From: Candidatus Methanohalarchaeum thermophilum | GTDB lineage: Archaea > Halobacteriota > Methanonatronarchaeia > Methanonatronarchaeales > Methanonatronarchaeaceae | Reading direction: 5' to 3' | Assembly (NCBI GenBank): GCA_001914405.1 | Contig: MSDW01000001.1 | Coordinates: forward strand, 1,243,169 to 1,307,168 | DNA: 64,000 nt | Shown here: positions 3,846 to 46,775 of the stretch, in pieces | Layout: each line of letters opens with the position of its first letter | Numbering within the stretch: the first letter of the stretch is position 1 | Notes under the pieces: generated by a model | The model's input: the letters and a program-made list of their open reading frames with translations, nothing else | The model's database searches: none | What the model was told of the DNA's origin: nothing | Position numbers and translations under genes: made by a program

Positions 3846-3943
<98 letters not shown>

Positions 3944-3946
3944 ATG

Positions 3947-3978: not shown

Positions 3979-4497
3979 ATGGGTAAAACTGATTCTATAA
4001 AACAAAGAAGAGTAGACGTCTACCTAGACTCACTAGAAAGAAAAAAGAAATGGAAAAAAATAGCCGAAAACCAAGACGATTCCTTATCAAAATTCATCCA
4101 AAAAGCCGTACAATACGCAATAGACCACGGAGGACCAAACTTCAAAGAACTAGGAAACAAAGCCAAACAAATACAAGAACTACAAAACCAAATCAACGAA
4201 CTCAAAGAAGAAGTTAAACAAAAGGACATGGTTATAGATAAACTCGAAGAAGAAATAGAACAATACAGAACCCAAAAATTCACAAACCAAACCTTCAGCG
4301 GCAAAAGAAAACACAAAAAACAACTAATAGACCTACTAAAAAACCACAAAAAACTAAATGGCGATGAAATCCTACAAAAACTCAACATAGACCCAACAAA
4401 CACAGAAGTAGTTGAAGGAATCAACAAACAACTACAGAACCTAGAACAATACGGCCTAATCGAAGACACAGGAAACGGCTGGAGGTGGACACAATAA
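3979..4497 (+). CDS. ribbon-helix-helix / coiled-coil / winged-helix protein, integrase partner
   Basis: The 172-residue protein has three parts. Residues 8-45 (RRVDVYLDSLER... LSKFIQKAVQYAI) look like a ribbon-helix-helix DNA-binding domain. About 60-100 form a heptad-rich coiled coil (IQELQNQINELKEEV). The C-terminus, about 110-172, resembles a winged helix ending LEQYGLIEDTGNGWRWTQ. It overlaps the integrase start by 13 bp, so the pair is co-transcribed. In haloarchaeal integrative elements, small DNA-binding proteins beside the integrase assist or regulate recombination. That role is inferred here from position. A palindrome just upstream may be its operator. Confidence 0.75.
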   Translation: MGKTDSIKQRRVDVYLDSLERKKKWKKIAENQDDSLSKFIQKAVQYAIDHGGPNFKELGNKAKQIQELQNQINELKEEVKQKDMVIDKLEEEIEQYRTQKFTNQTFSGKRKHKKQLIDLLKNHKKLNGDEILQKLNIDPTNTEVVEGINKQLQNLEQYGLIEDTGNGWRWTQ

Positions 4498-5453
4498 AAA
4501 CACAAACAAACCAACAAAAAACAACCAAAAACAACAAAGAAATACTAAACGAATTCATAAGAGACGCCAAACTCCAAGGCCTACAAAAAAGAACACTCGA
4601 AACATACAAATCAAACCTACAATACTACCTAAACTACATCGAGAAAAAACCCTGGCAAGCAAACAAAAAAGACCTAAAAAACTTCCTACATCACCTAAAA
4701 AACCAAAAACAAGGAAGAAGAGGTAAAGGTTTGTCACCAAGCACCATCAACTCATATTTTAGTGCGTTAAACACCTTCTACGATTACCTAAAGTATGAAG
4801 AAATTATCCAAGAAAACCCAGTCAAAGAAATAAGACAACGCTACATCCAGAACAAACAAGACAAAAACAAACGAAAAAGACAACTCCTATCTGTAAAACA
4901 AATGGCTTCATTAATAAAAGCAACCCTAGACACAAGAGACCGAGCAATAATAACCCTATTAGCAAAAACAGGAATAAGAAGAAACGAACTAATAAACATC
5001 GACCTAAAAGACATAAATTGGCAAAAAAACAAAATAGAACTAAAACCAACAGCCAAAAGAACAAACACAACCGTATTCTTCGACGACGAATGCGCAAGAA
5101 CACTAAAAAGATGGACAAAAACAAGAAACAAACAAGAACCCAAAACACAAGCACTATTCACAAACCAAAGCCAAAACAGACTAAAAAGACACGGAATCTA
5201 CCACGCAGTAACCAAACACGCACAAAAACTAGGCCACCACAATCCCAACTCAAACAACTTAGAAGAAAGATTCACTCCACACTGCTGCAGGCACTGGTTC
5301 ACCACACACCTAAGAAGAAACGGAATGAGAAGAGAATACATAAAAGAACTAAGAGGAGACACAAGAAACCAAGCAATCGACATATACGACCACATAGACA
5401 AACAAAAACTCAAAAGATCATACATGGCACACATACCAACACTAGGAATATAA
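4485..5453 (+). CDS. tyrosine recombinase / integrase
   Basis: This is a 322-residue XerC/D-like site-specific recombinase. Residues 20-110 form the SAM-like core-binding domain (TLETYKSNLQYYLNYI). The catalytic domain shows TGIRRNELINID (Arg I), a Lys in the beta-hairpin at KPTAKRTNT, HCCRHWFTTHL (His-x-x-Arg) and the nucleophile in IDIYDHIDK near residue 305. All catalytic positions are present, so the enzyme appears intact. The start is GTG inside GGAGGTG and no nearer ATG exists. Its closeness to the tRNA-Glu 3' end and its RHH partner mark it as the integrase of an element whose far end may be at 41.4 or 46.75 kb. Confidence 0.9.
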   Translation: MDTIKTQTNQQKTTKNNKEILNEFIRDAKLQGLQKRTLETYKSNLQYYLNYIEKKPWQANKKDLKNFLHHLKNQKQGRRGKGLSPSTINSYFSALNTFYDYLKYEEIIQENPVKEIRQRYIQNKQDKNKRKRQLLSVKQMASLIKATLDTRDRAIITLLAKTGIRRNELINIDLKDINWQKNKIELKPTAKRTNTTVFFDDECARTLKRWTKTRNKQEPKTQALFTNQSQNRLKRHGIYHAVTKHAQKLGHHNPNSNNLEERFTPHCCRHWFTTHLRRNGMRREYIKELRGDTRNQAIDIYDHIDKQKLKRSYMAHIPTLGI

Positions 5454-7791: not shown

Positions 7792-8131
7792 AAAAAGATT
7801 TCATTTCCCTTATAAACACCCACACCCCGTGTGAAATATTAAAAAGACAAAAAATAGTGCATCAAAGAATCAAAATTTAAGCAAAAATTGCTTAATTTTA
7901 TTAAAATACTTTATGGAAAAAATTGGCTTACAGAATTATAAGTTTTGTATCTTTTATAAATGTTTTGTATTTTTTTTTAAAGTTTTCTTTAATTCTTACA
8001 AGTTTAGTTGAAAAAAAAGATTTCAAAAAGATTTCAAATATCACCAAAATCTCGCAACTATTACACTATTTTGAAAGATTTTAAAATTTCATACGGGGTG
8101 TGGGTGTTTATAAGGGAAATGAAATCTTTTT
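7792..8131. repeat. near-perfect 46-bp inverted repeat around an AT-rich core
   Basis: The left arm (7792-7837) and right arm (8086-8131) are reverse complements with one or two mismatches over 46 bp. Both contain CCCACACCCCGT / CGGGGTGTGGG and AAATGAAATCTTTT. The 248 bp between them are almost pure A/T with several GATTTCA words. G-rich inverted arms around an AT-rich unwinding region are the layout of archaeal replication origins, though no orc1/cdc6 gene lies beside it. It could instead be a MITE-like insertion or a cruciform regulatory site. Confidence 0.75.
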
Positions 8132-11914: not shown

Positions 11915-12193
11915 TTATTGATTTAGTTTTTTTATCTTTACCTTTTCACCGATACTTGTATCGATTTCGTTTCTTAGGTATCCATCTATTCTTATATTGT
12001 CTTTTTCGTCGTTGGGGTAAGCTGGTAATGCTTTTGCAACTGTTTCTTCGTTTCCCTTGATTTTAATTAAGTCACCTTCTTTGATTTCAAGTTCTTTCAT
12101 TTTTTCTTTACTTATTCTAGCTATGTCTTGTTTTATGTCTTGGTGCCTAGCTTCCCTAACAATTAACTCAAGGACCATGGACTCATTCATCAT
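11915..12193 (-). CDS. stand-alone CDC48/VAT N-terminal domain
   Basis: The protein of about 92 residues matches only the N-terminal double-psi beta-barrel of the AAA ATPase CDC48/VAT. Motifs run LELIVREARHQDI, GDLIKIKGNEETVAKALPAY and IRIDGYLRNEIDTSIGEKV, in the family order. In CDC48 this domain recruits substrates and adaptors. Here no ATPase follows. It may act as a decoy, adaptor or competitor for host CDC48 partners, which is inference. Several ATGs are possible at the start; one of the MMNES pair is chosen because similarity begins shortly after. Confidence 0.7.
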   Translation of the reverse strand: MMNESMVLELIVREARHQDIKQDIARISKEKMKELEIKEGDLIKIKGNEETVAKALPAYPNDEKDNIRIDGYLRNEIDTSIGEKVKIKKLNQ

Positions 12194-12398
12194 ACAATAA
12201 GTATTTTTTAAAAACATCCATTATTATTCCTTCCCTAAGAAAAAAACAAAAAAATCCATTAGTCACTCAATACCCAGTACCACTTGAAAAAATATAATCG
12301 AAGAAGAACATTTGGTGTCTAAAAAATCTTTTTGAATAAATGAGGTTTTTAAATTAAATAAATTAGTTAAATTTTACCTAAAAGAAGATAATTGGGGC

Positions 12399-12410
12399 TG
12401 ATACGTATCA
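12399..12410. promoter_or_regulatory. TGATACGTATCA palindrome (copy 1)
   Basis: The 12-bp perfect palindrome matches the core of the 16-bp palindrome at 13092-13107. The two copies bracket the ribbon-helix-helix gene at 12482-13048. It lies just past the 3' end of that gene. Confidence 0.45.
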
Positions 12411-12481
12411 AAAAACCTGTAATAGTTTATTTTGTTAAATAAGAAACCCTCTGTAGTGTATGTGTGCCTTTAAGTCCTTGT

Positions 12482-13048
12482 TCAGTACCAGTGTTTTTTG
12501 TTTTCTTCTTGGTTCTCTAGTTCATTTATTTCTTGATATACGGATATTGGTTCTTGATATACGGATGTTGGTATTAGTTCTTCTTTTGAGTCATCTAATT
12601 CTTCTTTCCGCTCTGTTTCTGGTAAATCTTCAAGGTCTTTGACTTCTACGCTTGGATCCTCTAATTGTCCTCTGAGATTGTATCCCGATACCTCAATAAT
12701 TGTATCATTCGGGGTTTTTTTATTAGCTTCTTGTACAGCTTCTTTAAATCCATTTTTGTATCCTTTTTCACGTGTTTCTATTTTTATTTCTTTTTTTCCT
12801 TCTTTATAGCCTTCTTTGTATCCTTCTTCTTTTCCTTCTTTTTTTCCTTGCCTGTAACCAAGTTCTTTTCCTTCTTCGAATGCGTCAACGTTTTTTTCAA
12901 TTACTTCTCCAATCCATTCCTTTTTCGCCTTTTCTATTTCATTTAAATAATCCATCAATTTTTCTTTCTCTTCTCTCGGAACCCTAAAACTCACCACAGG
13001 ATTCTTTCTGTCATATTCCTTTTCTTTATCCGTTTTTTCATAAGTCAT
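12482..13048 (-). CDS. ribbon-helix-helix-like protein with Gly-Tyr-rich coiled coil
   Basis: The 188-residue acidic protein starts with PVVSFRVPREEKEKLMDYL, a plausible ribbon-helix-helix DNA-binding start. A stretch of glycine-spaced helix repeats follows (GYKEGYKEGKKE and similar, about residues 58-105), then an acidic tail with a small tandem repeat (TSVYQEPISVYQE). The layout, an N-terminal DNA-binding part plus a long oligomerising helix, resembles partition or regulatory proteins of archaeal plasmids. Perfect palindromes lie about 45 bp upstream of its start and just downstream of its end, suggesting autoregulation. The family is not identified with certainty. Confidence 0.65.
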   Translation of the reverse strand: MTYEKTDKEKEYDRKNPVVSFRVPREEKEKLMDYLNEIEKAKKEWIGEVIEKNVDAFEEGKELGYRQGKKEGKEEGYKEGYKEGKKEIKIETREKGYKNGFKEAVQEANKKTPNDTIIEVSGYNLRGQLEDPSVEVKDLEDLPETERKEELDDSKEELIPTSVYQEPISVYQEINELENQEENKKHWY

Positions 13049-13091
13049 AACTTAATAAACAATAAATTATTGTCTCTAATAAAGTTTTTTA

Positions 13092-13107
13092 TTTGATACG
13101 TATCAAA
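13092..13107. promoter_or_regulatory. TTTGATACGTATCAAA palindrome (copy 2), probable operator
   Basis: A perfect 16-bp palindrome lies about 45 bp upstream of the RHH coiled-coil gene start, where a repressor would cover the promoter. Related sites lie at 12399-12410 and as a degenerate pair at 13815-13844. RHH proteins bind such palindromes as dimers; binding here is inferred. Confidence 0.5.
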
Positions 13108-13275
13108 AAACAAACAAATACAAAAAATAAACCCCAAAAACACTCATTCACTTATAAAAAGTTCTTATAAATAAGTAATGTTATTTTTGGTTATTTAGAT
13201 CTTTTCAAATTCACTTATAAAGGTTTCGGATAGATAACATTTATTATTTTACAAATAGTGTTTTTTTTGATATAT

Positions 13276-13558: not shown

Positions 13559-13780
13559 ATTGTTATGTGAGGTTTTGGGGTAACAACTTAAAATCTCTTG
13601 TAGGGGCAAGTAAACGGGTAAATTCAGAGTAACTTAACTAGGTGATGAACACCTGAATGGGTGCGGTTCCGACCAAGATCCCATAGGGTTACGCCTCAAG
13701 AAGCAACACCTCAAAGGAAAAACCCGAAATATTGGAAAAAACTTTGAGATAGAGATGACCTAGTAAGAGTTATCAAAAAA

Positions 13781-13844
13781 ACACAATAGTCAAATGCTAT
13801 TGTGTGAGTTGATTTTGATATACATCAAATTTGATACATATCAA
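13781..13844. promoter_or_regulatory. 9-bp hairpin followed by two operator-like palindromes
   Basis: ACACAATAG/CTATTGTGT forms a perfect stem with a 7-nt loop (13781-13805). Directly after come TTGATATACATCAA (13815-13828) and TTGATACATATCAA (13831-13844), both one-step variants of the TTTGATACGTATCAAA site upstream of the RHH gene. The cluster may be a terminator plus operator controlling the genes downstream. Confidence 0.45.
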
Positions 13845-13906
13845 TTTCAAGACCCAATTGAAAGCCAAAAATTTCGATTAGGTAGATCCAGCAGTTAAGA
13901 GAGATT

Positions 13907-14035
13907 ATGGAAATAACCACTCTTTTAGAAAGTGGGAATATACAGAACCCTCATTATTTGGTGGACTTCTATATGTGGAATAATCACCCTCAAGAAAAAT
14001 TTAACCCATATAGAAGAATGAAGCCAAACCCATAG
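13907..14035 (+). CDS. possible small protein
   Basis: The 42-codon ORF starts MEITTLLESGNIQNPHYLVD and then reads FYMWNNHPQEKF. Its composition looks more protein-like than chance, but no family or ribosome binding site is visible. It lies in a stretch that also looks RNA-structured, with several G-rich segments from 13560 to 14143, so it may not be coding. Confidence 0.25.
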   Translation: MEITTLLESGNIQNPHYLVDFYMWNNHPQEKFNPYRRMKPNP

Positions 14036-14143
14036 GTCAGTGGGTAAAAGGAAATGGAAATTTTCCCATAAAACCTACTGAGTAGGAAATAGAGGGGCTT
14101 GGATCACATCAAAACAACAAAAAACGGCTTTGGGTGAGATGCC

Positions 14144-14572
14144 TTGAATGAAAGAATAAGCACAAAAGAAGCAAAAGAAGATAACAAGATACCAATAAAA
14201 CCAGAAACCGAGAAAGGTCAAATAAAATTGGAAATAGACAAAGCAAAGGACAAATTCGATGAAATACCAGAAATGACCGTTGAAACGATAGTTTTACACG
14301 AACAAAGACAAAAATTTTTCCAGAAACTAAGAGAAAACGGATTTAAGCACTTAGCGTGGACACCAGGAATTAGAGATGTATTTTACCACGAAGAAAAAGA
14401 CATATTAGTTGTTAATCTTGAAGGCGACATTAAGATATACACAAACAATACTTTCGAAGACATAGAAAAAGAAATACAGGAATACCCAAAACCAGAAGTT
14501 AGTTTAGGCGAAAATTACGACAGACGATTCGAGAAAGGAAAAGAACACTACAAAAAACAAAAAAACAACTAA
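14144..14572 (+). CDS. hypothetical protein ahead of the replication cluster
   Basis: The 142-residue acidic protein starts at TTG, six bases after the strong ribosome binding site GGGTGAGA. The same GGGTGA signal precedes the PCNA and RFC genes, so they probably share translation control. The first 40 residues are disordered and charged. The middle (VETIVLHEQRQKFFQKL, HLAWTPGIRDVFYHEE) looks folded. The tail is Lys-rich. No family is recognised. Order and shared signals make it the likely first gene of the PCNA-RFC-MCM cluster. Confidence 0.6.
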   Translation: MNERISTKEAKEDNKIPIKPETEKGQIKLEIDKAKDKFDEIPEMTVETIVLHEQRQKFFQKLRENGFKHLAWTPGIRDVFYHEEKDILVVNLEGDIKIYTNNTFEDIEKEIQEYPKPEVSLGENYDRRFEKGKEHYKKQKNN

Positions 14573-15036: not shown

Positions 15037-15924
15037 ATGGTTGAAGCACAAACCGAAGCCAAAACAAAAACCGAAGATGAAGAAACAGAAGTGGAGGAAA
15101 AAAAAGAAGAGGTGGAAGAAGAGAGGAATCAGACAATTGGAAATGCAAAAACAGAAGCAAAAACAAGCTACGGTGAATTAGAGGCAAAAATCAAGAAGAA
15201 AACAATTAACCGATTGATTAAGTCAATAGCAGGAATAATTGATGAAGCGAGAATAGAGGTAAGTAAAGACAAAATAACTTCAACGATGGCTGATCCATCT
15301 AATGTCTGTATGTATAACCTAGAGCTAAAAGACAGCGAATTTGAAGAATACGGATTAAATGAAGGCGAAGATGAAGATAGAGGATTTGAAACAGGCATAG
15401 ACCTAAATAGGTGGAAGAAGGTCTTAAAGATGTTTGATGACCGCAAAATAGAGATCGAATTAACTCCAGAAGAAACCAAGTTCATAGGAGATAAAAGAGA
15501 AGTTGTTTTAGACAATTACGATCCAAGCACAATACAACAAGAACCAAAGGTTCCTGACCTAGAATTACCTAGAAAATTCGAAGTAGACGAAACTGACTTC
15601 AAAGAAGCAATAAGTAATTCCGCCGAAATAAATGACAATGTAGAACTAAAAGCAGATGAAGAAGAAGGAGAACACTTTGTTATCGAAGCAAATGGTGACG
15701 CAGGAAGTTACAAAGACCAAATAGAAATAGAAGAAGACATAGAAAACGAGGGAACAGCAAAGTCAACATATAGTCTTGATTACTTAACAGACATAGCTAA
15801 GGCAAGTAGATTATTATCTGGCAAACCAGATAACTTAGAGATTGAATTAGGCACAGATTATCCCACTGTTCTAAGATACGATTACTTAACATTTCTGTTA
15901 GCTCCAAGAATAGAAAGCGAATAA
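15037..15924 (+). CDS. PCNA-like sliding clamp with acidic N-terminal extension
   Basis: The 295-residue protein has about 45 extra N-terminal residues that are almost all Glu, Lys and Thr, followed by a clamp-like domain of about 245 residues, the usual PCNA length. The clamp part has KTINRLIKSIAGIIDEARIEV, the FDDRKIEIEL segment, and YSLDYLTDIAKASRLLSG, which matches the conserved PCNA C-domain helix-strand pattern. It ends DYLTFLLAPRIESE, the PCNA last strand. PCNA encircles DNA as a trimer and tethers polymerases and nucleases. The start is fixed by GGGTGAAACCCAATGG. It lies directly ahead of RFC-like and MCM-like genes. It is a divergent, likely element-borne copy. Confidence 0.85.
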   Translation: MVEAQTEAKTKTEDEETEVEEKKEEVEEERNQTIGNAKTEAKTSYGELEAKIKKKTINRLIKSIAGIIDEARIEVSKDKITSTMADPSNVCMYNLELKDSEFEEYGLNEGEDEDRGFETGIDLNRWKKVLKMFDDRKIEIELTPEETKFIGDKREVVLDNYDPSTIQQEPKVPDLELPRKFEVDETDFKEAISNSAEINDNVELKADEEEGEHFVIEANGDAGSYKDQIEIEEDIENEGTAKSTYSLDYLTDIAKASRLLSGKPDNLEIELGTDYPTVLRYDYLTFLLAPRIESE

Positions 15925-15983
15925 AATTCCTCCACTTTCCTTTTTTCCTTTTCTCTTTTTCTTTTCTCTTTTTGGGTGAGAAT

Positions 15984-16640
15984 ATGGAGCCACTAACTGA
16001 AAAATATCGACCTAAGGCACTAGATGAAGTGGTTGGGCAACCAGAGAATATTGAAACTATTAAGAAACTACTAGAGAAGAGAGAGTCACAGCAAATTCCT
16101 TCTTTGTTGTTGTATGGTGGAGCAGGGTTAGGTAAGTCAGCTACAGCAGAAGCAATAGCAAACGAAATAAACGCAGAATTATCCAAATTCAACGCATCCA
16201 GCGAAGGAAAAAAGGAAACAGCAAAAGAAAAAATAGTTCCAGCATTACGAAATGCTTGGCGACCAAAGGTTGTTGTAATAGAAGAAGCCGACGGATTAAG
16301 CGGACACGCACAAATGAGTTTGAAAGAAGATATAAGCCAAAACCAATCCACAAAAGCAATCCTAATACTAATAACTAATCACATAGACAAAATCGTTGAT
16401 CCAATCAAATCAAGATGCATGCCTTTTGAATACGAACCAATTGAAACAAAACAAATCAAACAACACCTAGAACATATAGCAAAAAAAGAAGACCTAGACA
16501 GCGACCTTAATGGAGAAATACAAAAAATAGCTAAAAGAGCTGATGGCGACATAAGAAAAGCAATTAACCAATTAGATAGAGAAACACTAATAGATGATGA
16601 CAAAACCAAAGAAACAGCAAAACAAATATTTGGTGAATAA
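15984..16640 (+). CDS. truncated replication factor C small subunit (clamp loader)
   Basis: The AAA+ protein has about 218 residues. It starts LTEKYRPKALDEVVGQ (the RFC box), with Walker A YGGAGLGKSA near residue 47, Walker B VVVIEEADGLS with Glu in place of the first Asp, and the SRC motif SRCMPFEYE near residue 140. The lid follows (ADGDIRKAINQLDRE, sensor 2). It then ends about 100 residues short of normal RFC-S, so the C-terminal collar that assembles the pentamer is missing. It may work with host RFC subunits or form a simpler loader. The ATG at 15984 follows GGGTGAGA. The MCM-like gene begins one base after its stop. Confidence 0.85.
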   Translation: MEPLTEKYRPKALDEVVGQPENIETIKKLLEKRESQQIPSLLLYGGAGLGKSATAEAIANEINAELSKFNASSEGKKETAKEKIVPALRNAWRPKVVVIEEADGLSGHAQMSLKEDISQNQSTKAILILITNHIDKIVDPIKSRCMPFEYEPIETKQIKQHLEHIAKKEDLDSDLNGEIQKIAKRADGDIRKAINQLDRETLIDDDKTKETAKQIFGE

Positions 16641-16641
16641 A

Positions 16642-17622
16642 ATGGGCGGTTTCACTAATAAGAAACTAATCAAAGACTACGAAGAGCTACTAGAAAACAA
16701 GAGAGATATGGTTAACTATTGGTATCCAAAATATAATCCAAAAGTCAGCCAAATGGAGCAAACCAAGAAAGCATTATTATTAACAGTTGGTTCTATGGGC
16801 GACAGATACGGTGACAGAGGCAGAGTCCACACCCTATTAGCAGGTGAGCCTGGAACAGCCAAATCCAAACTAGGTATATGGACCGCACACCAACTAGATG
16901 GAAGAATGTGTGGAAAACGAACCACAGATGTAGGACTAACAGGAAGCTACGACAAAAAAACAGGAGAGATTGAACCTGGTGCGTTGCCACAGGCACATGG
17001 AAACGCCATCTTTATTGATGAATTAGATGAGTTTGCTGAAAAAGACAGACAGGGATTGCTGGAGGCGATGAGTGATGGAAAAGTGAATATAGAAGTAGGA
17101 GGAGACAAAAAACAATTCGAGGCACAGTGCCGAGTAATTGCTTCAGTAAATGATACAAGTGTTCTAAGCCCTGAATTAAAAGACAGATTTGACTTTGTTT
17201 TTGAATTAGAAACACCAAACAAAGACGAGCAACAGGAAATAATGAATGACCGAATAAGTGATTTCATGAAAGAAACTGAAGGATACGAAGGAAGTGAACT
17301 AAGAGGATATTTAGATTACATCAAGAGTTTTCAACCAGAGATCACACGAGAAACGAGAGAAAGACTAAAAGACATAGTGAACTTCTACATAAGTGCAGTT
17401 GATGAAGGAGAAACAGGGATACGGCACAAAGAATCAATCATCCGAATAGGAATAGGAATCGCCAAACTCAATATGCGTGACCTAGATCCAAGTGATGTAG
17501 TAAGAGCCACCCTACTACAAGATCCAAGCAACTCAAAGAATTGGAGAACAGCACAAAACATGGCGAACAAAACAATAAAACAAATAATACACAAAGCACT
17601 AGAAATAGAAGGATACACATAA
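16642..17622 (+). CDS. MCM-like AAA+ helicase lacking the N-terminal domain
   Basis: The 326-residue protein corresponds to the MCM ATPase half. Walker A is LLAGEPGTAKSKL near residue 57. The helix-2/presensor region holds DVGLTGSYDKKTGE, as in MCM. Walker B is AIFIDELDEF near 118. Then come sensor 1 (VIASVND) and the arginine-finger motif LKDRFDFVFEL near 180. The C-terminal lid includes RHKESIIRIGIGIAKL. Canonical archaeal MCM has about 250 extra N-terminal residues (OB fold and zinc domain) that order the hexamer on DNA; none are present. The ATG at 16642 is one base after the RFC stop. The likely role is unwinding or remodelling at an element origin. A non-replicative MCM-related ATPase is the alternative. 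Confidence 0.85.
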   Translation: MGGFTNKKLIKDYEELLENKRDMVNYWYPKYNPKVSQMEQTKKALLLTVGSMGDRYGDRGRVHTLLAGEPGTAKSKLGIWTAHQLDGRMCGKRTTDVGLTGSYDKKTGEIEPGALPQAHGNAIFIDELDEFAEKDRQGLLEAMSDGKVNIEVGGDKKQFEAQCRVIASVNDTSVLSPELKDRFDFVFELETPNKDEQQEIMNDRISDFMKETEGYEGSELRGYLDYIKSFQPEITRETRERLKDIVNFYISAVDEGETGIRHKESIIRIGIGIAKLNMRDLDPSDVVRATLLQDPSNSKNWRTAQNMANKTIKQIIHKALEIEGYT

Positions 17623-17709
17623 CCAAAATCCAACCACTTTTACTTATTTATTTTTTTTTTTGGATGAGATAAAAATGGTAGATGTCCATACTTGGAGTGG
17701 TGGCTAGAG

Positions 17710-18009
17710 ATGGAGAAGGGAGAAAAAGAAATTGAGGAATATATCGAAGACAGGTTCCAGGACGAAATCGTTGTTGATTGTAAAAAAAGAAACAATCACC
17801 TAACACTCCTGGCAGAAGCCAAAGAACAATACAGCGACAAATACACTAAACAAGGGTTTTGTAGATATGGAAACCAAGAAACAATCTATGAATTAATTGA
17901 TGAGTTAAGGGAAGCACGAAACGGTGAACCAATTAAAGAAGTTACTGAAAAAATGGGCGACGCAATAAGTTACAAAGAAGCAGCACAAAGACTAGGTTTC
18001 AAGGTATGA
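17710..18009 (+). CDS. hypothetical protein
   Basis: The 99-residue acidic protein begins MEKGEKEIEEYIEDRF and includes a strand-like segment (EIVVDCKKRNNHLTLLAEA). It ends YKEAAQRLGFKV. I recognise no family. The start is unclear. The ribosome binding site GGATGAG and the ATG at 17675 lie in a different frame that stops after ten codons. The coding frame can be read upstream through a TTG at 17692 and CPYLEWWLE, so a frameshift near 17680-17700 is possible. It follows the MCM gene closely and probably belongs to the same cluster. Confidence 0.5.
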   Translation: MEKGEKEIEEYIEDRFQDEIVVDCKKRNNHLTLLAEAKEQYSDKYTKQGFCRYGNQETIYELIDELREARNGEPIKEVTEKMGDAISYKEAAQRLGFKV

Positions 18010-19420: not shown

Positions 19421-19526
19421 ATTTCAATTTCTTATGAGTTTTCTAATGTACTGAGAGTATTTCAATTCAGAATACAAATAATCTTTTTCGTTTCAATCTC
19501 TTATGAGTTTTCTAATGTACTTAGAG
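19421..19526 (-). CRISPR. two-repeat, one-spacer CRISPR array
   Basis: Two 37-bp repeats (19421-19457 and 19490-19526) flank a single 32-bp spacer (19458-19489). On the minus strand the repeat ends in GAGATTGAAAC, the usual 3' handle of type I repeats. The cas2-proximal copy is intact-looking and the distal one differs at three positions, as a terminal repeat would. The leader should therefore be 19527-19646, between the array and cas2. I found no further repeats. Confidence 0.85.
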
Positions 19527-19646
19527 TCCAGGGCCAAAATCGTTCAAAATCCAAAATAACTCTTATAGTCCTCTCATTAGAGAACCTTTTTTCATGAACC
19601 CCTGCTATACATAGGGTTTATAATAGTCCATGAAAACCAAGTTAAA

Positions 19647-19925
19647 TTAAATAATATTTGATGACTTTCCGCTAGTATCTTCACCAAGATCCTTGATATT
19701 ATCTGCACACTTTTTACATAAGGAGTATATCCTGATTTTATCCCCTGTTTCAAGATGTTTCTGTAGTTCATCTTCGAGTTTTACTCTCTCGGTTTTAGTT
19801 ACTTCTAATTCAAAAACACTGTATTGTTTCCAAGCACCATATTTTCTTAAAGTTTTGTATACTTTTCTCCTATTCTTATCATCGCTTATATCATAGGCAA
19901 TTGCGAGATGTTCAGTTTCGCTCAA
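19647..19925 (-). CDS. cas2: CRISPR-associated endonuclease Cas2
   Basis: The 92-residue protein has the Cas2 ferredoxin-like fold pattern. It starts LAIAYDISDDKNRRKVYKTL with the conserved Asp after the first strand, then GAWKQYSVFELEV, and ends with IRIYSLCKKC. Cas2 forms the Cas1-Cas2 integration complex that inserts new spacers. It lies 4 bp after cas1 and is the last gene before the array. The C-terminal GEDTSGKSSNII tail is short and unremarkable. It appears intact. Confidence 0.92.
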   Translation of the reverse strand: MSETEHLAIAYDISDDKNRRKVYKTLRKYGAWKQYSVFELEVTKTERVKLEDELQKHLETGDKIRIYSLCKKCADNIKDLGEDTSGKSSNII

Positions 19926-19929
19926 GATA

Positions 19930-20931
19930 TCATCTCTTAAATTTTAGTGCATGATATTCGTCCATCTCACCAGTAATCCGTTTTCGAAGTAATACTGATT
20001 GCATTCTAATAGACTTTCTTTTAGACACCTTATAATCGAAATGAGGATGTTTAAATTCTTCTTTCATGTAACTATCGAATTTTTCTAAATAAGTTTTAAA
20101 TTTTTCATCTTTGAGGTGGTTGTTCTTCTTAAAATCATCATGAGTTATAGTTCCTCTATTCACCAGTCTTGTTGTGAATGCATCACAGAATATTGGCCGA
20201 AATTCTTCAAGTAAGTCGAGGGCTAGAGAAGGTCTTCCGTGTCTATCCGTGTGCATTATTCCAAGGAATGGATCAAGGTTATATTGTCTGAGAGCGCTTA
20301 TCACCTCATTCTTCATCATGACATAGGTTAAAGACATTAAAGAATTTATATGATCCTTTGGTGGATTCTTAGTTCTTTTTGTAAAGGCCCAGTCTCCTAC
20401 GAGTGCTCCATCTAGGAGTCTGAAGTATTCTTCGGTTGCAACTCCTTCGTATCCTCTTAGTTCTTTCATTTTTTCGGATTCCTCTATTCTGCTTTGAATA
20501 TCCTTAATTTTTCCTAGCCCTTTAACTCCTTTTCTTTTTAGGAAAGTTCGAGAATTCTTGATTTTAGCTTTTATCATGGATTTAGCTATCTCTAATTCTT
20601 CATCTCCCGTAATTCCATATTGTTTTCTTCTAACTTCTGCTATAGTATTCTTTTTTGGTATAAAAGATCCTTTATATTTCCCGTTTTGAGTGAAGTAGTT
20701 GAGAACTATCCCATAATCGTTAGCTCTTTTAACAAAAGGCGTAGTAAAGTTAATATTTCCAAAAACATTTATTGTATCCAACTTCTTTACTGGAAAAGAC
20801 CCTAATTCCCCCTCATCCCCATCTACATCCCAGATCACTATCCTACCTTCATCAACTCTAACCTGAGTACCTTGTTTAGTAACATAAACAACAGAATCAT
20901 CAAATATCTGTTCAGAAGCTTTCATAGACAT
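19930..20931 (-). CDS. cas1: CRISPR integrase Cas1
   Basis: This 333-residue protein has normal Cas1 length. The N-terminal beta-domain holds VYVTKQGTQVRV and the segment FGNINFTTPFV. The catalytic helical domain has the metal ligands in order: Glu in VMMKNEVISAL near residue 205, His in LGIMHTDRHGRPSLALDL near 222, and Asp/Glu in LLEEFRPIFCDAF near 238. Cas1 cuts and joins the repeat during spacer acquisition together with Cas2, and with Cas4 selecting prespacers. It is tightly packed between cas4 (6 bp) and cas2. All key residues are present, so adaptation may be functional despite the single spacer. Confidence 0.95.
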   Translation of the reverse strand: MSMKASEQIFDDSVVYVTKQGTQVRVDEGRIVIWDVDGDEGELGSFPVKKLDTINVFGNINFTTPFVKRANDYGIVLNYFTQNGKYKGSFIPKKNTIAEVRRKQYGITGDEELEIAKSMIKAKIKNSRTFLKRKGVKGLGKIKDIQSRIEESEKMKELRGYEGVATEEYFRLLDGALVGDWAFTKRTKNPPKDHINSLMSLTYVMMKNEVISALRQYNLDPFLGIMHTDRHGRPSLALDLLEEFRPIFCDAFTTRLVNRGTITHDDFKKNNHLKDEKFKTYLEKFDSYMKEEFKHPHFDYKVSKRKSIRMQSVLLRKRITGEMDEYHALKFKR

Positions 20932-20937
20932 ATTAAT

Positions 20938-21480
20938 CTAATCTTCTCCTAACTTCTTAGATTCTTCAGGCATACAATACTCACGAGCAGAACATTTTCT
21001 ACATTTACTAGGATTTTCATTAAATTTAGGAGGATTATCTGGTTTCATATTCTTAATATCCTTAGTTACTTCTTTAACTTTGTTTCTATGCCATTCAGTT
21101 ATCTTTATCTCAAACCTCTGGTCTGTTCCAAATAGATATATGATTCCACTATCGATTCTCTCATTTATATTCTTTTCTAACAACATACAGTATCCAGCTA
21201 ACTGTATTTCATCATTTGTATAGTAATCAGTTCCTCTTTTCCTCTCCACTGGAGTTATATTATCTTCTAAAATATCAATTTTCCCCTTAAGACCCAGTTC
21301 CTTTGACTCGAAGTATCTTTCTTTAGTCCAACCGCCCCTCCTAGATTGATTCTTATGTTTTGTTTTCCCATCAATTCGATAATAATTAGATCCTTGAGTA
21401 TTATAAAAAAGAATATACCAAAACCTACGAGGACAATAAAGATACTGATTAAGCATGGAAACATTAACTAGTCTATTCAT
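20938..21480 (-). CDS. cas4: CRISPR-associated exonuclease Cas4
   Basis: The 180-residue RecB-family nuclease has a 4Fe-4S cluster. The first Cys lies in LYCPRRFWY near residue 17 and three more in CRKCSAREYCMP near 159-168. The nuclease motifs are GKIDIL (Asp), VERKRGT (Glu-x-Lys) and the motif IQLAGYCMLLE. Cas4 processes and selects prespacers for Cas1-Cas2. Its ATG overlaps the cas3' stop by 4 bp, so it is translationally coupled. Cas4 is typical of type I-A, I-B and I-D loci. Confidence 0.93.
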   Translation of the reverse strand: MNRLVNVSMLNQYLYCPRRFWYILFYNTQGSNYYRIDGKTKHKNQSRRGGWTKERYFESKELGLKGKIDILEDNITPVERKRGTDYYTNDEIQLAGYCMLLEKNINERIDSGIIYLFGTDQRFEIKITEWHRNKVKEVTKDIKNMKPDNPPKFNENPSKCRKCSAREYCMPEESKKLGED

Positions 21481-23471
21481 TCTAGATCAAAAGTAGAATC
21501 AAGTTTCAAAGCATTTTGACCAAATGATAATTTATAATCTTTACTACTTCCGATCTTCAGATCATAAGTTCGGAATAAATGAGGTATTAATCCTCTATTA
21601 TCTTTATAAGTTCCTTCATCTAAAACATAGATCAAAAGATCCTTTTTAGAGAGCTTTTCTTCGATAAAATGTATAATTCTTGAATCCAAGTTATCTCCAG
21701 TGATCTTAAACTTAAAGCCTGCCTCATTTGGATACTTAATTAATCCAAGTTCTGGTTCATTATATCTAGTTGTTGTGAAACAGACATCCTTTGACTCTCT
21801 CTGAGGTCTTTCAGAAAAAAATAAGATAGGATCTATTACTTTTCTCTCTATATAATCAATTTTAACTGGAGATTTCCGTTTATTCTCTTCCTTAGTAATA
21901 AAATCTTCTCTTGAAACAAGGCTCTTAACTTCTTGAGTCTCAAGAAAATTAATTATATTTTGGAAATTAATCCTATTTTTTTCACTGACAGCTACCTGAG
22001 GGACTCCCGGATCCCTAAACGACATTAAATACTCTTCATATCTAGAATCACTTCTCGGAGACTTATGATATATTCGGTTACTTACTCCTATAACTTTTCC
22101 CTTAAGTGCAGGCTTAAAATCTTTCTTCATATTCCCTAACTCTAAAGGCCCATACTTGGTAATGAAACCTCTAAGATCATTTCTTTGTCTCATGTTCTTC
22201 AATACATCTCGTTCAAACTGTTTCCTGTCCATATAACTATCTTTCATCTCTTCAAGATCAAATGAGTACTCAGAGGTATAACAAATTGCCTTCGATCCCT
22301 TCCCTCTTCTACCAGTTCTCCCAAGCTTTTGAAGAAAATCTCTAGCCCTATAAGACTCAAAAAATAGATTTCTTGTCTCGAAATCTATTCCAACTGATAA
22401 AGTCCTAGTTCCAATCTGTAAACGAACTTCAGGTTCAGTTATACTGAGATCACTCGATAAATGACCTGTGTTGTAAGCCATTAAATCCTTCAGACTTGGG
22501 TATTCATTTTTAAGGAGTTCCACAAGATCTAAAGTCCGTTTCTCTGACTCAAAGATGGCTGTGATCTCTTTTGACTTCCCCTCAATTAAGCTCAATACAT
22601 TCTCTTCATTCTTATTAATAAAGAAAGAGGGAGCATTCCATTTCTTACCAAACACAATTTCAAGATCAAGATCCCCTGCTATAGTCTTACTTCCCCCATT
22701 AGATCTAGACTGATCATCTTTAAACACACTAATCCCATTCTCCGAGATCGCCTTTAGCCTTTTTTTGAAATCATCATCTGGAGTTGCCGATGAAAACACT
22801 ATGGACCGACTTATACCCTTATTCTGATGGATCAATAGTGATAAGTTTAGAATAGAAGTCTCCTGACTAACATCATACATATGGAACTCATCAAAAACAA
22901 AATAGGATATACCCCCGATAGCATTCTCTATAGCTCTATCCATAGGCTCAGAGAATCCAGAACTACTCCAGTATTTCCCAGTCAATACATTATAGAGAGT
23001 ATCTGGATTAGTTAAAAAAACATGAGCCCGAGAATGATCGGCCATTGCATTTCCAAACTTATCATACAGAATATCAGGAATGTTCTTATCTTTATTCATT
23101 CTTTCGTTCTGTAAGTATCCAGAGTTTATTTTCTCTATATTAATCTTATCTTGGAACCCAAACTCCTCTGAGTCCTCTTTAATTGAATTATACTGGTCCT
23201 CTATCAAGGCATTAGTAGGATAAGAAAGTATTATATTAGATCTTTTTTCCAATGCAGGCATTATATTAGCTATTGTCTTCCCTGAACCAGTCATTGACTC
23301 AAGAAAAAAAAGTTTAGAATTATTGTTATCCAAGGCATGTATCATAGAACGAAAAAAATCAGCCTGATGAGGGAATAAACTAATGTCTCCAGTGCTATGA
23401 GGCTGCTCTTCAGAATATTGAAACTTAACTGGATCAATCTTAATCCTTTTTCTTTTTGAGGTACCCGACAT
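21477..23471 (-). CDS. cas3: CRISPR type I-D helicase Cas3'
   Basis: The 664-residue superfamily 2 helicase has no HD nuclease domain. Walker A is ESMTGSGKT near residue 62. The DExH box is FVFDEFHMYD near 195, and motif III is FSSATPDD. Motifs V and VI are GTRTLSVGIDF and LGRTGRRGKGS near 385. A helicase-only Cas3 paired with an HD-containing Cas10d is the signature of type I-D. It would unwind target DNA after recruitment by the effector complex. It overlaps csc1 by 32 bp and cas4 by 4 bp, so the operon is very compact. Confidence 0.9.
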   Translation of the reverse strand: MSGTSKRKRIKIDPVKFQYSEEQPHSTGDISLFPHQADFFRSMIHALDNNNSKLFFLESMTGSGKTIANIMPALEKRSNIILSYPTNALIEDQYNSIKEDSEEFGFQDKINIEKINSGYLQNERMNKDKNIPDILYDKFGNAMADHSRAHVFLTNPDTLYNVLTGKYWSSSGFSEPMDRAIENAIGGISYFVFDEFHMYDVSQETSILNLSLLIHQNKGISRSIVFSSATPDDDFKKRLKAISENGISVFKDDQSRSNGGSKTIAGDLDLEIVFGKKWNAPSFFINKNEENVLSLIEGKSKEITAIFESEKRTLDLVELLKNEYPSLKDLMAYNTGHLSSDLSITEPEVRLQIGTRTLSVGIDFETRNLFFESYRARDFLQKLGRTGRRGKGSKAICYTSEYSFDLEEMKDSYMDRKQFERDVLKNMRQRNDLRGFITKYGPLELGNMKKDFKPALKGKVIGVSNRIYHKSPRSDSRYEEYLMSFRDPGVPQVAVSEKNRINFQNIINFLETQEVKSLVSREDFITKEENKRKSPVKIDYIERKVIDPILFFSERPQRESKDVCFTTTRYNEPELGLIKYPNEAGFKFKITGDNLDSRIIHFIEEKLSKKDLLIYVLDEGTYKDNRGLIPHLFRTYDLKIGSSKDYKLSFGQNALKLDSTFDLE

Positions 23472-24147
23472 TAAGAGGTAGCACCCCTCCTTCCTCAGTT
23501 ACTATCATATCCCCATTAAAAACAGCTGATGTTATCAATGGAGTGGGTCTCATTCTCTTAATTTTAATCTTCTTAGTATTTTGCTCAAACTCTTCTGACA
23601 AATCAAAAGCATTAAGAACACTTGTTAACTTTTTTTCAGTATTAGTATTTTCTCTCTCAAAATCCCGATCTACTGTTTTCAATCTTACCTTGCTCATAAA
23701 CTTACCAAGACGAGTTCTCGAAGGAAAATCGAACTCTTCTCTCGATAAAATAAAAGTTTCGAACTTAGATCCAATATCTATTCTTTGTAATTTATGACTT
23801 GTGAAAAATCTCTTTCCTCTCCTTGCTGTAACTTCTTCGTGGTATTCCTCACTAGTAGTATTAACTATTTCTGTACTAAAGTTGATATCAACCGGTTTTG
23901 CCGGAAATACGTAGAAATTCAATCTTCTCAAATCCTCTTTGTATTTGGGGCCTTCACCGGAAGGTTTTTCCCATTTTTTTGTGTACTCTGTTAACTTAGA
24001 AAAGTTTCCAGACGCATTTAAAATGGAATAAGTAAGGGCGTAATTATGAAGATAACGCCCTGAAGACACTCTCTTATTCATCTCCTTTCCACTGAAATAT
24101 ACTGGATCTTTTACCTCAATAGTAGCTTTCTTAACACTAATAGACAT
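23440..24147 (-). CDS. csc1: type I-D Cas5-like subunit Csc1
   Basis: The 235-residue protein sits where Csc1/Cas5d is expected and has matching traits. Its opening strand is followed by SSGRYLHNYALTYSIL, and the motif SRTRLGKFMSKVRL near residue 145 resembles the conserved Csc1 arm. It ends VLPLNVGYLKKKKD. Csc1 caps the 5' handle end of the crRNA in the I-D effector. The call rests partly on gene order (csc2 directly upstream with a 1-bp gap, cas3' downstream and overlapping). The sequence is divergent from the few members I can recall. Confidence 0.8.
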   Translation of the reverse strand: MSISVKKATIEVKDPVYFSGKEMNKRVSSGRYLHNYALTYSILNASGNFSKLTEYTKKWEKPSGEGPKYKEDLRRLNFYVFPAKPVDINFSTEIVNTTSEEYHEEVTARRGKRFFTSHKLQRIDIGSKFETFILSREEFDFPSRTRLGKFMSKVRLKTVDRDFERENTNTEKKLTSVLNAFDLSEEFEQNTKKIKIKRMRPTPLITSAVFNGDMIVTEEGGVLPLNVGYLKKKKD

Positions 24148-24148
24148 T

Positions 24149-25105
24149 TTAATCTCTCAATTGACTCCCATAGAGTTTCTCTAAGAAATTAATTTCATTA
24201 GATTCAAATCTACTTTTAATATCATCTTTGATGTCATCTATATCGACCTTACTATTAGGTAATGTCTCTTTCATAGCTTTTCTAACGGTTTGAACTGATA
24301 GATCATTAAGAGATCCATTATTGTTCTCAATCTCTTTAGTTACTTCTTTAGTAAGTTCTAAATTGGAAATAGTTTCCTTAGTATCAAACCATATTGAAAC
24401 AATCTGATTATCAATGTATCCAGTTCGACTAGTCTCAGCCCCATACCTAGTAGTGCTCTCTATCAGATGAATCAACCAGTATAGCTCCCTCCAAGTGAAA
24501 TCTCGAATAGTTACTATCGATGGGAAAAAGGTTTCTGGCTGGGTATGGGCTGTAGAGTTAAGGGCTGTAGATGCCTCAGATTCGTTTTCCTCACTTTGTG
24601 CATTGAAAGTAATGTCCTCACGCTGGTTTAAGCCTCTTACTGAAAAGGCTGAGTCAGTTAGAATCCTTGAGTGTCTGGAGCCATCTTTTTCCTCTGCATT
24701 AGCGAATCCATAGAGTTTACAGTCTATACATTTTCCTCCGAGGTTATCATGTAACCTACATAAGTCCTCATCCTCATTGAAATTTCCGAAGGCTTCCTCC
24801 TTTTCTATGTCATCAGAATTATTTTTGTATAGTCCTCGGAGTATTTCCTTTCCTTTTCTTCTCTCTGATGCTACTTGTTTTCTCTTAAACATAACTATTC
24901 TCTGAATTTTTTCTTCAGATTCAGGCTTTTTTGAAGTAGAAGCCAAGTTCAGTTCAGAGCCCTCCGTAGTAAATATGTTGTAAGAATCGGTTTTTCTTAG
25001 AACTCCAATATGTGCCATTCTCCCTGTTTTTGTTTTAGGAACTTTTTCGTATATATAATCCTCTATTTCTTGGAGGATATCAGGAAATTCAGAACTTTCA
25101 CTCAT
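24149..25105 (-). CDS. csc2: type I-D backbone subunit Csc2 (Cas7-like)
   Basis: This protein of about 318 residues forms the crRNA-bound backbone. It has GRMAHIGVLRKTDSYNIF near the N-terminus, a four-Cys zinc site CRLHDNLGGKCIDCKLYG near residue 130, and the helical motif FTWRELYWLIHLIESTTRYG, both typical of Csc2. The start is set at MSESSEF because GGTGAT lies four bases before that ATG. It then overlaps the cas10d stop by 8 bp in the form AATGAGTGA. A start eight codons upstream is possible but has no ribosome binding site. Confidence 0.87.
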   Translation of the reverse strand: MSESSEFPDILQEIEDYIYEKVPKTKTGRMAHIGVLRKTDSYNIFTTEGSELNLASTSKKPESEEKIQRIVMFKRKQVASERRKGKEILRGLYKNNSDDIEKEEAFGNFNEDEDLCRLHDNLGGKCIDCKLYGFANAEEKDGSRHSRILTDSAFSVRGLNQREDITFNAQSEENESEASTALNSTAHTQPETFFPSIVTIRDFTWRELYWLIHLIESTTRYGAETSRTGYIDNQIVSIWFDTKETISNLELTKEVTKEIENNNGSLNDLSVQTVRKAMKETLPNSKVDIDDIKDDIKSRFESNEINFLEKLYGSQLRD

Positions 25106-27941: not shown

Positions 27942-27943
27942 CC

Positions 27944-28801
27944 TTAAGACCTATTAACAATCCTAATACCCACACTCCCACATCCTCTGCTCACAGAACT
28001 TCCAATACCACCAAATTCAGAGAATAAAGAAAGAGCAGTTACAGCCATCTTAAAATCTTGATCTGTTTTCTTAGAGAAAAAATACTTGCATTTCCCAGTA
28101 AACCCTTGTCTAAATATTGGCCTCTTATGGCCCTTGTTCTCATCATCCACCCGATCCACCATAACACTATGAAACTCCAGGGATCGGTTATCTGGCTTTT
28201 CTATAATGTTACGTCCAATTTCCTCCTGTGATATATCTATTTCAAATCCATTAGGTACTACACCATTCCATTTAGATAAAATTGATGAGAACACTGCTTT
28301 TCGATGTGGAAACATTTCCGTTACCTTTGAGTCCTTGAATTGGATGCAAGTTGGGGTTTCGAATTGAACTAGGATTTCAGGATCTTCATATTCATTTGCT
28401 TCTTTGAATATTTCTTCAAAGCTCACTTTCGAGCTTTCAAATTCTTCAACTCTTAGCGATCCATCCTCAAATTCTATGAATCCTTCATTGAGTATAAGGG
28501 GTTCTACCAAACTTTGAAAGATTTCGGCTTCTTTCGGATCCGTTACACCTATTTTGAATTCATATTCTTCACTAGGCAGGACACTCTTTCGGTGTTTCCT
28601 ATTGGTTTTTGGCTTACTGAACTTTCCATCTAGATTAGAAACATTGATGGATGAAAACTCTGTATCGTGGACGTGTGAACTTATTTCATTGTCAGATTCA
28701 TTAATTTTATTTAAAAGTGCTGAGTAGAGCATATACCCATCACTATCAGGTAAGTCAAATCTATTCTTAGGGCCTGCCGTGATTTTAATTTTCCTAGGCA
28801 T
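27944..28801 (-). CDS. cas6: CRISPR RNA endonuclease Cas6
   Basis: The RAMP-fold protein has about 285 residues. The C-terminal glycine-rich loop of Cas6 is clear: SLFSEFGGIGSSVSRGCGSV, just before the last strand VGIRIV. Upstream is the paired-strand segment GFTGKCKYFFSKKT. Cas6 cuts the pre-crRNA at the repeat 3' handle. It is the first gene of the operon. The start is placed at MPRKIKI because a TATATA box lies about 20-25 bp upstream, which suits a leaderless transcript. An ATG three codons earlier is the alternative. With one spacer in the array it would make a single crRNA. Confidence 0.85.
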   Translation of the reverse strand: MPRKIKITAGPKNRFDLPDSDGYMLYSALLNKINESDNEISSHVHDTEFSSINVSNLDGKFSKPKTNRKHRKSVLPSEEYEFKIGVTDPKEAEIFQSLVEPLILNEGFIEFEDGSLRVEEFESSKVSFEEIFKEANEYEDPEILVQFETPTCIQFKDSKVTEMFPHRKAVFSSILSKWNGVVPNGFEIDISQEEIGRNIIEKPDNRSLEFHSVMVDRVDDENKGHKRPIFRQGFTGKCKYFFSKKTDQDFKMAVTALSLFSEFGGIGSSVSRGCGSVGIRIVNRS

Positions 28802-28816
28802 TTTACGCATGTACAG

Positions 28817-41157: not shown

Positions 41158-41208
41158 TGAATTTCTCTGAACCAAAAACTCATTTAATAACTTATCTGAT
41201 ATCAGTTA

Positions 41209-41438
41209 TTTACTAGTAAATTGGCGTGGGAATCCCGTTTCTCGAACATTGTAGTTAAAGATTACTTAGAAAATTATAAAAACAATTTTTTGCATTCATT
41301 ACTTAAACCAACTAAATGAATTGACTTGGGAGAAGGCCCAGGAGAATGCATTCAAGAATCCCTATTTAATAATTTACGGGCAAAACTCGAACCTAAACCC
41401 CCGTCGGAGCATTTAACCGAAGGCTTTAACTCCCTTAC
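41209..41438 (+). repeat. 230-bp direct repeat, copy A (contains tRNA-Glu 3'-end-like core)
   Basis: This is identical to 46546-46775 at all but about five of 230 positions, with no indels. It begins with the ACTAGTAAATTGGCGTGG motif also at 34785. Near its right end lies CCCCCGTCGGAGCA, a two-mismatch copy of the tRNA-Glu tail, preceded by the arm ATTTACGGGCAAA. It is a probable attachment-site scar. Confidence 0.8.
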
Positions 41439-46497: not shown

Positions 46498-46545
46498 AAA
46501 AGCCATAGAAATTTTTAATACACTATCTCACACGTAAAAAAATTT

Positions 46546-46775
46546 TTTACTAGTAAATTGGCGTGGGAATCCCGTTTCTCGAACATTGTAGTTAAAGATT
46601 ACTTAGAAAATTATAAAAACAATTTTTTGCATTCATTCCTTAAACCAACTAAATGAATTGACTTGGGAGAAGGCCCAGGAGAATGCATTCAAGAATCCCT
46701 ATTTAATAATTTACGGGCAAAACTCGAACCCAAATCCCCGTCGGAGCATTTAACCAAAGGCTTTAACTCTCTTAC
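46546..46775 (+). repeat. 230-bp direct repeat, copy B, with putative attR
   Basis: This copy is about 98% identical to 41209-41438. It contains CAAATCCCCGTCGGAGCA (46731-46748), an exact 18-bp copy of the tRNA-Glu 3' end. The arm ATTTACGGGCAAA (46709-46721) is the reverse complement of the arm after tRNA-Glu at 3926. It is the best candidate for the far junction of the element that starts at 3.9 kb. A partial inverted copy of the repeat's left motif lies at about 46877-46900. Confidence 0.75.

Follow-up and report, generated by a model that had tools for sequence, protein, structure and literature searches.

Introduction

MCM helicases and RFC clamp loaders are engines of archaeal and eukaryotic replication, and it is thought that the N-terminal tier and winged helix of the former, and the collar of the latter, make them replicative helicases and loaders. 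The AAA+ ATPases Orc1/Cdc6 and DnaC, which have no clamp-loader collar, have a ring helicase as their target. DnaC works as an AAA+ helicase loader (PMC8213410). MCM-family AAA+ helicases are also borne by archaeal mobile genetic elements, among them the pT26-2 family, pMEFER01, BJ1, HFTV1, HATV-3 and the thaumarchaeal CIEs, where they often lie near an integrase and are considered to recruit the replication machinery of the host (PMC6563490, PMC6972569). The examples that we examined keep both an N-terminal tier and a C-terminal part, at a full length of 688-777 aa.

Unlike these, the MCM described here consists of the AAA+ core with its lid, and its gene directly follows that of an RFC small-subunit-like ATPase that lacks the collar. 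We refer to the whole 64,000-nucleotide stretch of DNA analysed as the window. A sequence-only reading of it had proposed that a PCNA-like clamp with an acidic extension, a collarless RFC and an MCM ATPase core lie in this order on the + strand (15037-17622), and we confirmed all three ORFs. The RFC/MCM-core pair is not described in the open-access literature that we searched, and it gives the impression of a genuine minimal kit for replication that has so far gone undescribed. As a natural, conserved and selected pair without collar, N-terminal tier or winged helix, it makes the functions of a bare AAA+ engine directly testable, including the ability of an RFC-type ATPase to work for a helicase in place of a clamp, and it brings a further replication type to what little is known of the mobilome of methanogenic and halophilic archaea.

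Results and discussion

Organization of the locus

The MCM Shine-Dalgarno region consists of the final codons and stop of the RFC gene (GGT GAA TAA), which end 1 nt before the MCM ATG (Table 1). The stop codon is embedded in this way both in the window and in a relative described below, G199 (GGTGAATAAAATG and GGGTGAGTATG). With GGTGA lying within the last RFC codons, MCM probably starts at ATG 16642 and not at 16594; RFC, with a GGTGA-type Shine-Dalgarno sequence ahead, probably starts at ATG 15984 and not at TTG 15972. The earlier suggestion that the genes share GGGTGA ribosome-binding sites held for two of the three: the leader TTTGGGTGA, with four matches in the window against 0.6 expected, precedes PCNA and RFC, as well as the 142-aa gene, but not MCM. 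The gene for the 105-aa protein stays directly 3' of MCM in the sister genus, with a dN/dS of about 0.24.

Table 1. Features of the module and of the island that carries it (window coordinates)
Feature	Position	Strand	Remarks
tRNA-Glu(TTC), integration target	3846..3921	+	3' end is the attL core
attL-side arm TTTGCCCGTAAATAATTTA	3926..3944		inverted relative to the arm next to the attR copies
Tyrosine integrase, 322 aa, complete catalytic domain	4485..5453	+	PF00589, E 8.8e-27 over 5-171/172
Non-coding stretch upstream of the module	13560..14140	+	strong RNA folding
142-aa protein, TTTGGGTGA leader	14144..14572	+	no confident Pfam or PHROG match
PCNA-type sliding clamp, 295 aa	15037..15924	+	PF00705 2.9e-7, PF02747 2.6e-5
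Collarless RFC small-subunit-like AAA+ ATPase, 218 aa	15984..16640	+	Walker A, Walker B, sensor 1, SRC arginine finger, sensor 2
MCM AAA+ core with lid, 326 aa	16642..17622	+	no N-terminal tier, no winged helix
Protein of up to 105 aa after MCM	17692..18009	+	later start likely; counterpart L012:8270-8572
att copy 1	41361..41411		arm and degenerate tRNA-Glu 3' end; inside a 233-bp direct repeat
att copy 2	46704..46748		arm and exact tRNA-Glu 3' end; likely outer island boundary

The RFC protein comprises the AAA+ module and lid only. It aligns to residues ~7-219 of archaeal RfcS, covers as much of the protein as PDB 2chg, an archaeal RfcS chain of 226 residues, and stops after the lid, where the C-terminal collar domain would follow. 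It shares with the RFC/gp44 clamp loaders an AAA+ module with Walker A and B, SRC arginine finger and sensor 2 (motifs GGAGLGKS, VVVIEEAD, SRC and GDIRKAIN), and it keeps clamp-loader hallmarks, namely SRC and the coupler Gln of AQxxL, whose T4 counterpart is Gln118 (PMC8121543). Identity is 34% to the host RfcS and up to 38% to archaeal RfcS.

The MCM protein aligns from just ahead of Walker A through the lid. It matches PF00493 (3.2e-22), the MCM_lid match falling under its cut-off (22.4 of 27.4 bits), and it keeps the invariant MCM-type AAA+ residues of Walker A/B, arginine finger and sensor 2, including R182 and R261. It is 31% identical to the host MCM. The h2i and PS1 hairpin regions appear as strands in its AlphaFold (AF2) model, which has low confidence (pLDDT 46) and was not taken to a fold search. 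The sequence-only reading had held that an MCM needs its N-terminal domain; this is too strong, since the C-terminal tier of SsoMCM or ApeMCM unwinds DNA in vitro on its own, a separate N-terminal tier increasing processivity in trans (PMC4619765). A core-only MCM is therefore plausibly a helicase.

The truncations

The host is a halophilic archaeon and, judging by its relatedness and genome features, probably belongs to the Methanonatronarchaeia. Its genome encodes its own full-length PCNA, RFC-S (RfcS), RFC-L and MCM, so the module is an extra set. We considered whether the short genes could result from frameshifts, with the missing domains encoded next door, as the sequence-only reading had allowed. 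They are not: the RFC stop forms part of the MCM Shine-Dalgarno region 1 nt before the ATG, which leaves no room between the genes for a collar or an MCM N-terminal tier. Moreover, in this genome both missing domains occur only in other, chromosomal-type ORFs, the collar family PF08542 once, in the chromosomal RfcS, and MCM_OB PF17207 in frames of 723 and 885 aa. The 885-aa frame (G000:C1:1067388-1069085) represents another chromosomal protein carrying an MCM OB domain, in addition to the 723-aa MCM. A recent duplication of the host genes is also unsupported, the identities being ~30-35% and the window PCNA not grouping with the host PCNA.

A remnant of the module in the sister genus (SCG-AAA382B04, L012) bears on the same question. 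It retains the last 76 MCM codons and the following 105-aa gene at ~82% nucleotide identity, and its MCM ends at the same residue ('...EGYT*'). Comparison with the window MCM gave a dN/dS of 0.097/0.677, or ~0.14 (NG86, 75 codons), showing that MCM is under purifying selection. With the same end and a low dN/dS in the sister genus, the lack of a winged helix has been inherited and selected. The RFC and MCM truncations are real, and these do not look like decayed genes.

Relatives in other archaea

We searched phylum-wide, in 394 genomes of one phylum, and found core-only relatives of the MCM in three genomes of two other families: G199 and G214 (family f7) and G360 (family f4). They are 421, 432 and 415 aa long, respectively, and 42%, 42% and 33% identical to the window MCM over the aligned length; in a local search they score far above all full-length MCMs. 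The homologues are thus core-only themselves and not, as the sequence-only reading had left open, ordinary full-length chromosomal proteins. The N-terminal tier, with its OB and zinc-binding subdomains, is absent from the MCMs of the window, G199, G214 and G360, and all of them lack a C-terminal winged helix, ending soon after the lid. The relatives have an N-terminal domain of ~100 aa, which the window MCM lacks; it looks winged-helix-like by eye only, and a profile search of the PDB gave nothing significant.

Each of these MCMs has a collarless RFC, or what the contig keeps of an RFC gene, upstream. In G199 a complete one (217 aa) lies directly upstream of MCM, its stop inside the MCM Shine-Dalgarno sequence (AGGGTGAGTATG); in G360 a complete one (228 aa) lies 2.4 kb upstream on the same contig; and the G214 contig begins in the 3' end of RFC, followed by MCM. 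All the RFCs stop just past the lid, with similar tails in the three relatives (YLQR, YLKK, YMKQ), and the G199 RFC matches that of G360 at E 3e-60. RFC and MCM alike keep their ATPase, arginine-finger and sensor residues intact, and the truncation points of both are conserved across three families. A tyrosine integrase lies within about 1.7 kb of MCM in G199 and about 2.2 kb in G360, and the two integrases are homologous (3e-17). Together these comparisons indicate that the RFC/MCM-core pair is recurrent and conserved; of the three genes it is this pair that recurs, and PCNA is not found beside it in G199 or G360. The 52-kb G360 contig (L157) also holds a second tyrosine integrase (L157:10336-11154), similar to that of the window (9e-14), 1.2 kb from a PCNA gene (12331-13113).

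In phylogenies the MCM cores formed a 100/100 clade on a long branch apart from the full-length chromosomal, viral and plasmid MCMs sampled, together with a 548-aa hypothetical protein of the Haloplanus rubicundus plasmid pCBA1112-01. That protein likewise lacks a winged helix and a match to the canonical N-terminal tier, but it sits on a very long branch and has its own, unrelated-looking N-terminal part of ~260 aa; we found no RFC match on its plasmid. The collarless RFCs fell outside chromosomal RfcS (89/98), and their monophyly is compatible with the data (AU p 0.39) in a poorly resolved tree with long branches. In MCM and RFC trees lacking the new relatives, the window proteins were placed by long branches only. 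IMG/VR yielded no close relatives with the module proteins or the G199 MCM as queries, and with alignment A2 it returned nine MCMs, each 604-727 aa long, plus an unrelated MoxR-like ATPase. Among the related-genome contigs searched only the SCG-AAA382B04 remnant matched, and no collarless RFC partner was present in the stretches read around known archaeal mobile-element MCMs.

The PCNA clamp

Both PCNA domains of the window clamp exceed the Pfam gathering score, and the protein aligns to 1rwz over its full length. It is 35% identical to the host PCNA and lies outside the host PCNA group in the tree. Residues 1-47, ahead of the Pfam alignment, which begins at about residue 48, form the acidic extension (16 D/E, 7 K/R). 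Haloviral and haloarchaeal plasmid PCNAs (phiH, PhiCh1, HFTV1, and Haloglomus and Haloplanus plasmids) are likewise extra clamps on mobile DNA; they are ~23-31% identical, but no neighbouring collarless RFC and MCM core were seen.

A PCNA gene adjoins the RFC/MCM pair in the window only; none lies beside it in G199 or G360. PCNA is therefore not a constant member of the module, nor the equal partner that it had been taken for, and its acidic extension is shared with haloarchaeal plasmid clamps. Long N-terminal extensions are annotated in four of six such clamps checked (L116, L117, L123 and L124, ~80-100 residues) and are acidic in L116 and L117, the two whose sequence was read; the extension is a recurring feature among mobile-element clamps.

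The mobile element

The gene for the tyrosine integrase comes after tRNA-Glu. Two further copies of the tRNA-Glu 3' end are present, an exact one at 46731-46748 and one with mismatches at ~41395-41411. Next to the core, at attL and at attR, lies an arm in inverted orientation (TTTGCCCGTAAATAATTTA / TAATAATTTACGGGCAAA), the arrangement expected of a split attP. tRNA 3' ends are the preferred mode of integration in archaea (PMC8371274). These features indicate that the module sits in a mobile element inserted at tRNA-Glu, and the sister-genus remnant also lies near tRNA-Glu, amid att-like copies. The island is composite and measures 37.5-43 kb, with two attR copies; as it is AT-rich and partly degraded, this copy of the module may have lost the ability to replicate. 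No polymerase, primase or Orc1 was recognised among the island ORFs scanned, in line with the sequence-only reading. The element must therefore rely on its host, which argues against the alternative that the system is self-contained.

The island also holds a complete type I-D CRISPR-Cas operon (19421-28810). The matching repeat has only two copies in the genome, separated by a single spacer of 32 nt, and little of the array is thus left. The att copies lie in a 233-bp direct repeat (41206-41438 and 46543-46775, 97%) on either side of a 5-kb segment that encodes a PAS histidine kinase; the segment looks accreted or duplicated and has no integrase of its own. At 7792-8131, 53-bp near-perfect inverted repeats, 340 bp end to end and with no 60-aa ORF inside, resemble a MITE.

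Possible roles of the pair

The conserved heart of the module is the pair of collarless RFC AAA+ module and MCM core. The explanation that we judge best, giving it a little under an even chance, is that the locus serves to replicate an archaeal mobile element that integrates at tRNA genes, the host replisome being recruited by a reduced MCM ring together with its dedicated partner, the collarless RFC. This agrees with the original proposal of a reduced, host-dependent replication module, which the integrase, the tRNA-Glu gene, the att repeats and the recurrence of the pair all support. The MCM core would form the element's own unwinding ring, its helicase activity being predicted, and the RFC would be the AAA+ protein dedicated to assembling this ring, or loading it, at the element's origin in the manner of DnaC or Orc1/Cdc6. 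Host primase, polymerase and RFC would perform the remaining steps, and in the window copy the element-specific PCNA would capture the host polymerase. Because no PCNA lies beside the pair elsewhere, the constant partner of this RFC, in contrast to the RFC/gp44 clamp loaders, is the helicase and not the clamp, and a collarless loader with such a neighbour suggests a helicase-directed role. Against this, the window RFC keeps its clamp-loader hallmarks and adjoins PCNA, and no helicase-binding domain was recognised. The likeness to DnaC and Orc1/Cdc6 is one of function; the AAA+ lineages differ, and the RFC has neither a winged helix nor a DnaB-binding domain. That the collarless protein is a helicase loader derived from RFC and dedicated to the stripped MCM core, the two making up a two-protein initiation system of mobile elements, we put forward tentatively, as possible though rather doubtful; such a system would link clamp loaders to helicase loaders of the ORC/Cdc6 type.

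The adjacency of PCNA, RFC and MCM in the window, two of them with TTTGGGTGA leaders, would also fit a hybrid clamp loader, in which the AAA+ module of the collarless RFC becomes part of host RFC, or competes with it, to load the element's own PCNA, while the MCM core acts as an independent Rep helicase. The SRC finger, sensor 2 and coupler Gln are all retained, and T4 provides a precedent for divided loader domains, in the opposite arrangement, with gp62 lacking the AAA+ module (PMC3331839). However, it is the carboxy-terminal collar that holds clamp-loader subunits in the pentamer (PMC3331839), and in G199 and G360 RFC and MCM stay together while PCNA is missing beside them; we consider this reading unlikely. 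It seems to us improbable that the element gains an advantage through mixed rings, in which its shortened AAA+ proteins would disable or divert the clamp loader and helicase of the host. Full-length host homologues are present and MCM N and C halves cooperate in trans in vitro (PMC4619765), but all catalytic motifs are intact, which a dominant-negative protein would not need, the identity to host proteins of only ~30% makes mixed rings uncertain, and the pair is found across several host families. The pair travels with integrases, and SCCmec MCM-like helicases adjoin recombinases according to the passages of PMC6972569 and PMC6563490 that cite them, so a recombination or fork-restart module of MCM8/9-type or SCC-type helicase-like kind, not serving replication initiation, was also weighed. 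We regard it as quite improbable: the adjacent PCNA and the repeat-rich, structured non-coding region favour replication, and apart from integrases the pair is accompanied by no conserved nuclease or recombinase. Decay of ordinary replication genes, as truncated pseudogenes or frameshift artefacts, would suit the degraded stretches of the island and the survival of only a remnant in the sister genus. It is largely refuted and very improbable, given truncation points conserved in three families, a retained stop/Shine-Dalgarno overlap, intact motifs, the dN/dS of MCM and the lack of adjacent coding sequence for the missing domains.

The upstream non-coding region

A candidate origin lies upstream of the module. 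The non-coding stretch of ~580 nt folds more strongly than its shuffled versions (z -5.4, 0/100 shuffles); it is preceded by TTCACTTATAAA repeats and contains TTGATAYRTATCAA-like palindromes. No Rfam match was found for it, and no copy in 20 relatives. We suggest that it is possibly an origin or control region, or a large structured RNA. Divergent from the module, a 188-aa ORF on the - strand (12482-13048) matches PHROG 4785 and has a start that looks ribbon-helix-helix-like by eye and KEG-rich repeats. Further upstream, a 100-aa ORF (11915-12217) encodes a stand-alone CDC48 N-terminal domain (PF02359, 1e-25) without ATPase domains.
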